NCBI GenBank assembly: GCA_030272155.1
Contig: CP126201.1
Coordinates: 5,008,501 to 5,072,500 of the forward strand
From: Tetradesmus obliquus
Lineage: Eukaryota > Chlorophyta > Chlorophyceae > Sphaeropleales > Scenedesmaceae
Reading direction: 5' to 3'
Length of the DNA: 64,000 nt
The notes under the pieces are model-generated. The model did no database searches, was not told where the DNA came from, and worked only from the letters and a program-made list of their open reading frames with translations. A program made the translations under genes and the position numbers. Shown here piece after piece: positions 59,869 through 64,000 of the stretch. The first letter of the stretch is position 1. Each line of letters opens with the position of its first letter.

Positions 59869-62800
59869 CTAGCCCAGCAGGCTCCTCCCAGCGCGCGGCT
59901 CCTCGTCGCCGCTGTCCTCGCTGCTGCTCCACCCCCCCAGCGCGTCCTCGCCCCACACCACGCCCTTCATGTACAGCTCACCCAGCCGCCCCTGGTTCAC
60001 AGCCTCCTGCTCGCCCACCAGGCGACGCCCCTCAGCCAGCAGGTCGGCCAGGGTCAGCGGCACGGGCTCAAACTCGGGCAGATCCTTCTGCGACAGCAGC
60101 CGCTTGTTGACCTCCTTCACGCGCGCCTCGTCCGCGTCGTGCAGCGGCGCGCCTGTGGCCAGGCGAGAAAGGGAATGCAGCCAGGCAGTGCTGAGGTGAG
60201 AGGCGGCAGTGCAAGGCGCTGCACCTGGCAGCCTGTCATGCACCAGCACGCCGCAGATAAGAGTGCGCGCCAGCAAGCACTCTCTGTTCAATCTGACAGG
60301 CTTTGGTGATGCGCTGCATGACGGCAGCGGCACGCTGGACCCCTCAACTCCTGCACAGGCTGTGCACCCCCTGCCCCCACCACCCTGCCACCGCCCCGCA
60401 CCTGCCACGCCGTGCATCCACTCGCGGATCTGTGCGTCGTAGGTGGCTGCGCGCAGTGCGCCGAAGAAGTCCAGCGCCTGGTTGCCAAAGGTGTCGATGA
60501 GCGTCTCGATGTCGCGCTTGGACACGCCGTCCTCCTTGTACATCTGGGGGGGCAGTGGTGCAAGCAGGGGCGGGCGCAGCAGCATGCATGTCAGCAGCAA
60601 CAACGGCATGCAGCGTGCAGGTGTGCAGCTGTGCCATTAGATGCCTGCACCAGCTGCTGAGCGGGAAGAGGTGCACGCAGGCATGTGGTTGGTTGCTGCT
60701 GCGTTGCGGCATCATGCAGGCGCTGCACCGCGCCTGCCACGCACTGCCGCGCATGCGGTCCTGCTCAGGCTGCTGGCCAGCTGCTGTGCTTGAGCGCCAG
60801 CTGGCAAAAGACAGCTCGCGTCGCGCCAGCCACTGCCCCCATGCAGCCCATGAGTGCCAGTATCGGCTATGCAAATATGCTGCAGCATGATCAACCACTA
60901 GAACTCCCGCCGGCTGCCGCTGATCTGCTGCACTGTGGCAACACACCAATGCCACCAAGACAACAAAGCTATAACAATCAACTCCAGCACAACCATCTGC
61001 AAGCCAACACCCCCGCACCCACCTGCCACACGATGGCCACCACGTCGTCGCGCTGCGGCTGCCAGTAGAACTTCTCCATGCGGCCGTCCCTGATGAGCGG
61101 CGCGTACAGCGTGGAGAAGTCGTTGCCCGTCACGATGATGGGCACGCGCTTGATGTAGTCGCTCTCCCGCCAGTTGGCGCCGATGCTGACGCGGTTGGGG
61201 TCGTCGCAGATGTTCATGAGCGTGCCGATCACAATCTGGTTGTTCACCGTGCACTGCGGGAACGCGGTGGCAGCAGCAGCAGAATGCGGCAGCACACACA
61301 ATAGGATGTCAGGCAGCGTGCTTGGGCATGCTGGGTGGCAACGCCGGCCTGCCATACATGCCAGCATCACCAGCCAGCAAGAAATGCACACGCACAGTAA
61401 TCATAACTAGCACCAGTGCTTGCTGCAGTATGCCAGTGTATCTGAGCACACCAGCAGCCTCTTGTGTCGAGCAGGCCAATTCCCCTTCAAACTGCTTTAC
61501 CTCCAAGCTCGCCCGCACCTGTGTCTTGCCGAAGCGCGCGATGCTCTACACACGCATCCCAGCCCCAGGACCAACTTCTTGTATAACCCCTAAACCCATG
61601 CTGATAACCACCTAAACCCTGCACCCCAGCCGCACCTGCGTGTTGCCGAAGCGCCCAATGCCCGCGTCCAGGTCGTTGATGACCAGGCAGCTCAGCTTGC
61701 CGCGCGTCTTGCTCAGCTCCGCAGCCTTGCGGTAGCGCTCACGTATCAGCCGCCCCGGCTGCCCCGCCGTCTCGCTCTCCAGCTCCCCCGCGCTCATCAC
61801 CACAGGCTCCACGCCCAGCTTCCTGAACGCCAGCTCGGTCTGCGGCAGCAGGGTGGGGCGGGATGCATGGGGTCAGGCGGTATGACACTATGCGCTTTGC
61901 CACACTCTCCTGAATAACGCAGCGCAGCTCCACCCGGGTGGTGGCCTATATGCACCCCAGCCGCCTGCACATGCGCGGCGCAACAAGCCACCACACGCCA
62001 GCTGCCTTCCAGCTGCTGCCGGCTGGCCTCATGCTGCTGCTGCTGCGCATGCTGCTGCCTCACCTGGAAGGTCTTGCCGCATCCCTTGGGCCCCCATATG
62101 CCCAGGATGAGCGGCACCTTGGTGGTGGCGCTGATGGCGCCCTGGTCAGCCAGGTAGTTCTTGGTGATGTGCATCTGGGGGGGGGGGGGGAGCAGCAGCA
62201 GCAGTGTGTATTTAGATGCCTTGTGGGCCAGGTAGCTGTTGCTGAGGTGCATCCAGGTATGGCAGCAGGCGGGGGCAGGGCTGCAGGTAGCCAGGGCAGG
62301 AGGCAGGGACGATTTGAGACATGGCTGGTGCAAGCACACAGACATTTAGAGTCACTTCCAGCAAACATGCGGCCTAAACCAACACAACCCGTGCCGCTGC
62401 CAACACAGGCGATCACTGCACGCCAACGCCAGCCGCCGCCCAGCACGCTGCCTCCATGCAGCAGGCGCTGTGCCCTGAGCCAGACCTTGTGTGCACACTC
62501 GCCACTCATCACTCACCGCCACTTTGTCCATGAACTGCGGCGCGATGTAGTAGTCGCCGATGATGTGCTTCAGCGTGCGCGCCTCCCAGCCCCGCAGGCT
62601 GCCGTCCGCGATGTCGCTGCGGTGGCCCAGCACGTTGCCCGTGAACAGGCTGTCGATCATGCCCACGTTCTGCCCCGCGTCCACATTCGTGTTGTAGTCC
62701 GACTGCCCCAGCTCAAACAGGTAGTCGCCAGCAGAGCCGCCGCTCGCCTCCTTGGCATCCCAGCTGCTGCGGAACCGCTGCCCGCTGCCGCTGCTGCTGC

Positions 62801-63364
62801 TGCCGGCATCTGCAGCAGGCGGCGCGGCCGGCGCGCCGCTGCCGCCGCTGCTGCTCCTGCCAGCAATGTAGTTGCTGAAACGGCCGCCCTCAGGCTGCTG
62901 CTGCTGCTGCTGCTGTGGCTCAGGTTGCTGCTCCTGCTGGGGTTGTTGCGGCGGCTGTTCGCGCTGCTGCTGCTCCCGCTGCTGCTGCTCGCGCGGCGAG
63001 GGCGAGGCTGAGCGCCAGCTGCTGCCCGCGGTGTACTTGGAGAAGCGGCCGCTGGAGGTGGGCTCGTCACCTGCACTGCTGCTGCTGCTGCTGTCATATA
63101 CCGGGCTGGGCGAGCGCCAGCTGGGAGATGTAGGCCGGCTGAGCGGCCGCTGTGGTTGCTGCTGCTGCTGCTGTTCCTCATCAGCGTAGCCGCTCCTGCT
63201 GTCTGGCCGCTGCTGTGAGAGGTAGGAGCCCCACCTGCCCCCTGCTGGGGAGGGAGGCTCAGCAGCAGGAGGCTCCGGATCACGCCGCTGCTGCTCACGC
63301 TGCTGCTCCTGCTGCTCCGGTGAAGGCGTGGAGCGCCAGCTGCTCCACCTACTGCTGCTGTCAG

Positions 63365-63406
<42 letters not shown>

Positions 63407-64000
63407 GGCGTGCGGGTGGTTCCTGCGGCTGCGGGCTTGGTGAGCGCTGCCTGATGCGCTGGATCTGGTCGGCAAAGCGCTCACTGCCGCTGCTGCTGCT
63501 GCTGGCTTGCGGCTGCTGCTGCTCCTGTTGCGGTGGAGGCACCAGCCCACCCTCAGGCTGCTGCTCCCAGGGAGGGATAGGTCCCTGCTGCTGCTGCTGC
63601 TGAGCGCGGGATGAGATGATGCCATCCCAGCGTGAGCTGCCATCAGCGCCGCCGACATCGCTGCCGCTGCTGCTGCTGGGCTGCGCATCCTGGCGCCTCC
63701 ACTGCTCCTCCCGCTGCTGCTGTTGCTCGCGCCGCTGCTGCTGCTCCACGTCCGGCGTCTGCTGCTGCCGCCGGTCGATGAACAGCGTGGCGGGCGGCTG
63801 CGGCGGCTGCTGCTTGCGCGCAGCAATGATGGAGGCCCACCTGTCGCCGGAATCAGCCTGCTGCTGCTGCTGCTGCTGCTCCTCCTCCTCAACTGTGGAC
63901 TCAGGAGAAGAGGCAGGAGATGCTGCAGCAGAGGCAGCTGGCGATGCAGCCGGCGATGCAGCCGGCGAGGCCGCTGCTGATGCTGGCTGCGATGGCGTCG
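59869..64000 (-). CDS. Rubisco activase-like AAA+ protein with long repeat-bearing N-terminal extension (5' end outside window)
   Basis: Exons in transcript order: (beyond 64000)-62517, 62174-62064, 61839-61636, 61253-61023, 60543-60402 and 60152-59869; phases agree. The core matches Rubisco activase: [20 protein letters not shown], Walker [29 protein letters not shown], Walker [30 protein letters not shown], sensor [11 protein letters not shown] and [10 protein letters not shown]. Activases use ATP to remove inhibitory sugar phosphates from Rubisco in the chloroplast. The differences from the canonical form are large. More than 430 residues precede the core in the same open frame, made of Gln/Ser/Pro/Arg-rich sequence with spaced motifs ([50 protein letters not shown], and three SWRSxSP-like units). 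The C terminus is acidic and Ser-rich ([14 protein letters not shown]). The transit peptide should lie outside the window. It could be a second, pyrenoid-linked activase or a paralogue with another client. Confidence 0.88.
61510..61663 (-). repeat. Duplicated exon end and donor in the activase-like gene
   Basis: The end of the Walker B exon (RFGNTQ then gtgcgg, about 61627-61663) has a diverged copy at 61510-61544 reading RFGKTQ then gtgcgg. About 28 of 32 bases match, and the copy still has a usable donor. Confidence 0.85.
62176..62189 (-). repeat. Poly-C tract (minus strand) at the acceptor of the Walker A exon
   Basis: A run of 12 to 14 C on the coding strand sits directly before the CAG acceptor of the exon starting at 62174. 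Confidence 0.9.
62770..63848 (-). repeat. Degenerate motif repeats in the activase-like N-terminal extension
   Basis: Motifs of the type [G/S/D]-R-[W/F]-x-x-[Y/I] occur near 63848, 63635, 63240, 63050 and 62890, with SWRSxSP-like motifs near 63335, 63120 and 63020 and a last [10 protein letters not shown] near 62780. The spacing is mostly 35-95 residues and the linkers are disordered Gln/Ser/Pro runs. Confidence 0.75.

Follow-up and report, generated by a model that had tools for sequence, protein, structure and literature searches.

Introduction

The closest described counterparts of the gene treated here are SAGA1 and SAGA2 of Chlamydomonas, which combine CBM20 domains with Rubisco-binding motifs and bind starch and maltoheptaose, and which the available excerpts of the reports give as restricted to close relatives in the Volvocales (PMC13167743, PMC10473226). 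The authors of the 2026 SAGA paper speculate, in the portion of it available, that analogues exist in other algae as carbohydrate-binding proteins whose Rubisco-binding motif is their own. A literature search, with most subscription journals and preprints outside its coverage, found no CBM20 activase. Our subject is a minus-strand gene of Tetradesmus obliquus, called CBM20-activase below, whose 3′ part lies at the end of a 64,000-nucleotide stretch of contig C11 (the window, C11:5008501-5072500) and which was extended past the window edge by reading the adjoining locus L009 (C11:5072001-5081000). The gene model places, in order, a transit-peptide-like start, three CBM20 domains, a disordered array of short motifs, and an activase-like AAA+ core in one protein.

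CBM20-activase shares with SAGA1 and SAGA2 the combination of CBM20 and motifs in a protein of the starch-matrix interface, its own Rubisco binding and location there being presumed. The SAGA proteins differ in being described as coiled-coil, in their annotation to the SMC family, and in their Volvocales motif, and the excerpts name no AAA+ domain in them. EPYC1, CsLinker and PYCO1 resemble the array in being disordered, with repeated short binding elements, but the excerpts mention neither a starch domain nor an enzyme domain in them, whereas CBM20-activase is multi-domain; both comparisons are by description. Cyanobacterial Rca with a tail resembling the Rubisco small subunit is an activase fused to a Rubisco-binding module, and is drawn by it into a condensate; its tail differs from the array as a single-copy folded domain, and it has no starch module. 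The EPYC1-based pipeline that found CsLinker applied a rule of 20-120 residue spacing, and the CsLinker helix engages RbcL through Phe, Arg and Lys, according to the available part of that report (PMC11570498).

Gene model and starch-binding domains

The model was drawn by eye from the window and L009 and has 12 exons and 1570 residues, with all eleven introns GT-AG and matching in phase (Table 1). Its first residues, MQRGHPLGAGSARTVPQHYRAAGSRIGLRSSVSPKCRRRRLVLG, resemble a chloroplast transit peptide as judged by eye. Exon 7 holds both the array and the activase N-domain, so that no splice event is required to connect the two. The stop-free frame around that exon runs for 733 codons (window-equivalent 64553 to 62355 on the minus strand), just one reading frame of the exon is free of stops (the other two have 4 and 24), and 0 of 2000 base shuffles of it remain open. 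The first-pass annotation of the window had noticed an open frame linking array to activase. That frame is real and longer than was noted, and with the 5′ end now modelled from the flanking sequence it becomes the 3′ part of a larger gene whose CBM20 domains lie upstream, outside the window. The same annotation put the AAA+ core inside the frame, which is correct for the activase N-domain; the Walker A/B core lies in five further exons (62174-59869), spliced in phase.

Pfam matches CBM20 (PF00686) in the whole protein with E = 1e-47 and 160.3 bits against a cut-off of 23.3, in three stretches at roughly residues 239-325, 369-453 and 543-630, and has weaker matches on this part of the protein to three other starch/glycogen-binding families. 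Aligned to one glucoamylase domain (1ac0), the third of them from residue 557 only, all three domains keep LGxW, E-[FY]-K and WExxxNR, the binding-site positions of CBM20. The first two domains and the start of the third depend on predicted introns; the last part of the third, from residue 604, is encoded within exon 7, beyond the window.

Motif array

Residues 701-1180 consist mostly of Ser, Gln, Pro and Ala, and it is against this composition that the motifs stand out. R[WF]xx[YI] occurs 5 times versus a shuffle mean of 0.046, SWRS followed by SP 3 times versus 0.002, and the wider form R[WF]xx[YILQ][ILT], picked post hoc after sequence inspection and adding the unit RFADQI, 6 times versus 0.017, with 0 of 20,000 residue shuffles reaching the count in any of the three cases. 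The five or more R-[W/F]-x-x-[Y/I] and about three SWRSxSP units claimed in the first reading of the window are therefore there, and far above shuffles. The six units are spaced by 70, 51, 81, 63 and 55 residues, inside the 20-120 residue window used to find the Chlorella linker. An AlphaFold2 model of residues 754-1247, run without alignment, is mostly disordered over the array with a mean predicted local distance difference test (pLDDT) score of 46.6; it supports disorder of the array and says little on how the motifs fold.

Activase-like core

The core has Pfam matches to the Rca helical domain (PF21228, 2e-23) and to AAA (2.1e-14), matches the solved Rca chains 6z1d, 4w5w and 3t15 with E between about 1e-90 and 1e-94, and keeps Walker A (GPKGCGKT) and Walker B. 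In alignment it has ALRAAT where canonical Rca has ALRARV and carries an insert near the specificity helix. In all 8 canonical Rca rows inspected, [DG]RWxG[LM] stands before the DDQQD segment; CBM20-activase has SSWDAKE there instead.

In a tree of 41 hand-picked rows, the seven canonical Rca rows group at 100/100 to the exclusion of the CBM20-activase core, which groups with P0021, P0042 and P0048 at 100/99. A group of short paralogues (P0024, P0025 and P0116) adjoins the core's group at a fork of 80/95, and a fork of 92/83, not starred, gathers 28 chlorophyte RCA-like rows. Three land-plant RCA-like rows are placed beside canonical Rca at 95/88, and P0016, P0117 and P0104 have long branches. 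The SSW.AKE N-domain and the grouping with RCA-like proteins fit the RCA2 type, a name that goes with "Rubisco activase-like" in the available part of a paper reporting a transcript change (PMC8374494). By homology, then, the core is an RCA2-type activase-like paralogue of chlorophytes, outside canonical Rca and with putative activase activity; the activase homology proposed in the first-pass annotation is borne out by Pfam, Protein Data Bank matches and tree alike.

Counts over core relatives refer to the best 120 of 3964. The closest is P0021 at 87% identity; named chlorophytes with the RCA2 type, Chlamydomonas among them, lie on the same AAA+ side of the tree at 56-73% identity to the core. 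A readable SSW anchor is present in 80 of the 120. Upstream of the anchor, nine of these 80 carry one R[WF] unit each, six of them being volvocine by name, and no protein carries two or more, so that one ancestral unit in every RCA-like protein is not supported.

Rhodanese domains (PF00581) are present in the RCA-like proteins P0004, P0005, P0008-P0010, P0014, P0104 and P0112; the Chlamydomonas pyrenoid matrix likewise contains proteins of the rhodanese type, STR16 and STR18, in the excerpt available. In P0002 of Sanguina aurantia an RCA-like core is attached to a CFAP47-like ciliary protein, probably because the annotation merged two genes. In P0006 of Selaginella, canonical Rca leads into a series of near-identical repeats and then a PF00160 (cyclophilin) domain. 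As to naming, one paper gives Cre06.g298300 as RCA2, whereas two others give it as MRL1, and the locus number is not used here for RCA2.

Related motifs elsewhere in the genome

The genome searched comprises 104.66 Mb in 17 contigs, and paralogues were located in it by Pfam family matches. PF21228 has 8 matches at four loci: the CBM20-activase gene; a canonical Rca on C8; another Rca of canonical type, on C16, in which the frame closes with no array present; and a short RCA-like paralogue at C11:1.155 Mb with a transit-like start and one GGRFDRLIQQR unit. By tblastn over this last locus (L034 and L036, about 19.7 kb), no CBM20 is found. Its C-terminal exons are repeated, the last one in three copies, perhaps alternative last exons or decay.

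The C8 Rca corresponds to the public protein P0007 (OEZ85_014455), with 98-100% identity over core exons, 91% over one N-terminal piece and 94-99% over large tail pieces. In its long tail, SAP-like helical repeats separate the GDRW[AS]xY-type and SWRSxP units, and the tail's only Pfam match in P0007 is a sub-threshold Rho_N. The DNA pattern for GDRWxxY occurs at 17 places in the genome versus 20 for the backward control pattern. Eight of the 17 cluster in a C8 segment of about 22 kb (C8:5758405-5780423), in the Rca tail and the two genes flanking it. Those genes encode repeat-only proteins that are very similar to each other. Both begin with a transit-like segment and contain SAP-like repeats as well as GDRW/SWRS units; each has four R[WF]xxY units, four [SN]WR units and an AGSRW end, and their isoelectric point (pI) after the first 29 residues is 10.2. 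No activase core is found in either gene by tblastn. They are candidate Rubisco linkers of this alga, as far as composition and motifs indicate.

The nearest resemblance to the CBM20-activase array segment is DRWSKYSAGSTKAASWRR of the C8 Rca tail and both repeat-only proteins. P0007 has R[WF]xxY and SWRSxP units similar to those of the array, and differs in that its own array lies at the C-terminus, is basic and alternates with SAP-like helical repeats, in its canonical AAA+ core, and in having no CBM20. On sequence, the motif of the array is similar to that of the C8 proteins and not identical with it. Between P0007 and the metagenome protein P0013 (70% identity), three tail units can be compared (GDRWASY/GSRFASY, GDRWSKY/SNRFSNY and SGDRWASY/TGGRFASY), and in these Arg and Tyr are kept and Trp becomes Phe; the first tail unit of P0007, GDRWARE, has no counterpart in P0013, and GDRWSSY falls in an alignment gap.

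Two further DNA patterns were set aside. GGRFxNY has two places in the genome, one inside the CBM20-activase gene and the other reading GGSF, and a loose SWRS pattern, with 222 matches versus 37 for its control and only the first places listed, was dropped as uninformative.

Table 1. Features of CBM20-activase and the two C8 repeat-only genes. Positions without a contig name are in the window; those beyond 64000 are window-equivalent coordinates.
Feature	Position	Strand	Basis
Exon 1	68053-67975	-	gene model
Exon 2	67727-67675	-	gene model
Exon 3	67340-66570	-	gene model
Exon 4	66366-66106	-	gene model
Exon 5	65782-65660	-	gene model
Exon 6	65210-64689	-	gene model
Exon 7, 1932 bp (third CBM20 end, array, activase N-domain)	64448-62517 (in window 62517..64000)	-	GT-AG borders, kept phase, open frame
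Array unit 1 RWASII, residues 806-811	63825..63842	-	motif scan
Array unit 2 RWDGII, residues 876-881	63615..63632	-	motif scan
Array unit 3 RFADQI, residues 927-932	63462..63479	-	motif scan
SWRS unit SWRSTPSP, from residue 973	63330..63341	-	motif scan
Array unit 4 RWGSYL, residues 1008-1013	63219..63236	-	motif scan
SWRS unit SWRSPSP, from residue 1046	63111..63122	-	motif scan
Array unit 5 RFSKYT, residues 1071-1076	63030..63047	-	motif scan
SWRS unit SWRSASPSP, from residue 1080	63009..63020	-	motif scan
Array unit 6 RFSNYI, residues 1126-1131	62865..62882	-	motif scan
Activase-like N-domain SSWDAKE..., residues 1164-1247	62517..62768	-	alignment to RCA-like proteins; PDB Rca match
Exon 8, with Walker A GPKGCGKT (about 62093-62070)	62064..62174	-	gene model, alignment
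Exon 9, with Walker B region	61636..61839	-	gene model, alignment
Exon 10, AAA+ core	61023..61253	-	gene model, alignment
Exon 11, AAA+ helical subdomain (PF21228)	60402..60543	-	gene model, Pfam
Exon 12, C-terminus and stop codon	59869..60152	-	gene model
Repeat-only protein, 617 residues (L037/L033)	C8:5761063-5758075	-	gene model by eye
Repeat-only protein, 615 residues (L039)	C8:5777718-5780747	+	gene model by eye

Discussion

The reading that we favor, at roughly even chances, is that CBM20-activase is a SAGA-like pyrenoid connector, which joins the starch sheath to the Rubisco matrix and has an activase-like motor in addition. After import into the plastid, the three CBM20 domains would hold the starch sheath, and the R-[W/F]-x-x-[Y/I] and SWRS array would hold the Rubisco matrix, either directly or via linkers with similar units. 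With starch held by the one and matrix by the other, the C-terminal activase-like AAA+ ring would therefore be held in place at the interface between them, and there it may use ATP to remodel Rubisco or may regulate the attachment. The Chlorella linker site on the large subunit includes the region bound by activase in Solanaceae, in the available part of that report (PMC11570498), and because of this overlap the array and the motor could compete for Rubisco or hand it over.

Several observations weigh against the connector. None of the best 120 core relatives, RCA2-type proteins included, and none of 20 long relatives of the core has a listed CBM20, and a protein search with the CBM20 half found no CBM20-activase, a weak evidence of absence because low-complexity stretches supplied part of its query words. 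P0021 and P0042, which seem to derive from transcriptomes, are core-length open reading frames starting inside the gene; they could be incomplete assemblies or shorter messages. None of the 17 GDRWxxY places lies in the CBM20-activase gene, and among its six array units one reads GDRW and three have Tyr at the fifth place. The units also do not match the Chlamydomonas motif, [D/N]W[R/K]xx[L/I/V/A]. Short helices appear on units 1 and 3 only (2 of 6) in the low-confidence AlphaFold2 model, and the array is acidic (pI 5.0) versus the basic linker-like C8 proteins. The searches found neither a second CBM20-activase protein nor a full-length transcript.

The alternative that survives best, though we think it unlikely, takes the array as a meeting motif for linker-like repeat proteins, the Rca tail or another scaffold, which would make CBM20-activase a pyrenoid client in indirect contact with Rubisco. 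The presence of similar units in four proteins of the genome (CBM20-activase, the C8 Rca and the two repeat proteins) is what any common partner predicts, and opposite charge could draw the acidic array and the basic linkers together; against this, Rubisco itself would be the simplest partner for an activase and linker-like proteins to have in common.

Rather improbable, in our view, is that the protein belongs to the starch granule, with an AAA+ remodeller acting on a starch enzyme or other stromal client and no role with Rubisco. The core's place outside the seven canonical Rca rows, ALRAAT for ALRARV and the insert near the specificity helix would all suit such a role, as would the same SSW-type N-domain in the land-plant proteins P0125, P0128 and P0130, flowering plants not being known to have a pyrenoid. 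The likeness of array units to canonical Rca tail units, and of CBM20 plus motif array to SAGA1 and SAGA2, speaks for a Rubisco role.

It is very improbable that adjacent CBM20 and activase genes were read as one, or that the gene is decaying, since the lack of a full-length public protein in the searches with core, long relatives and CBM20 half is met by one stop-free exon spanning the CBM20 end, array and activase N-domain, 12 exons in phase with GT-AG borders, and a core relative as close as P0021.

Returning to the connector, it departs from the linker-plus-repair enzyme suggested in the first-pass annotation. The motif array and the activase homology behind that suggestion are real, and similar motifs do occur in the alga's own Rca tail and in the two repeat-only proteins, but with three CBM20 domains a starch-matrix tether fits better. 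With an RCA2-like core that has ALRAAT for ALRARV and an insert, repair of Rubisco is at most a possible activity. As to bulk linking, better candidates are the basic repeat proteins encoded on either side of the canonical Rca.

A wider proposal, which we offer tentatively and hold to be doubtful, is that one motif code is used three ways in the scenedesmacean pyrenoid: in two basic repeat-only linkers, in a canonical activase with a linker-copy tail, and in an activase-like connector that binds starch and so links matrix and sheath. The code would perhaps derive from activase's own N-terminal [D/G]RWxG[L/M]. The resemblance of the canonical [DG]RWxG[LM] to the GDRW units is suggestive only, and this origin stays a guess because the canonical GRW segment aligns by position with the SSW of RCA-like proteins, not with the array. 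The N-terminal domain of canonical Rca is said to contain Trp16. It is this domain that is required for activation, as the available excerpts have it (PMC9951593, PMC5437159). If the proposal is true, the glue of the pyrenoid would have arisen by multiplying an anchor of activase, one that lies in a region needed for Rubisco activation.

CBM20-activase fits the design that the 2026 SAGA paper, in its available part, sketches for starch attachment outside the Volvocales, and adds an AAA+ module to it. The motifs of its array point to two concrete linker candidates for Rubisco condensation outside the Volvocales, and such parts are sought for building pyrenoids in crops.

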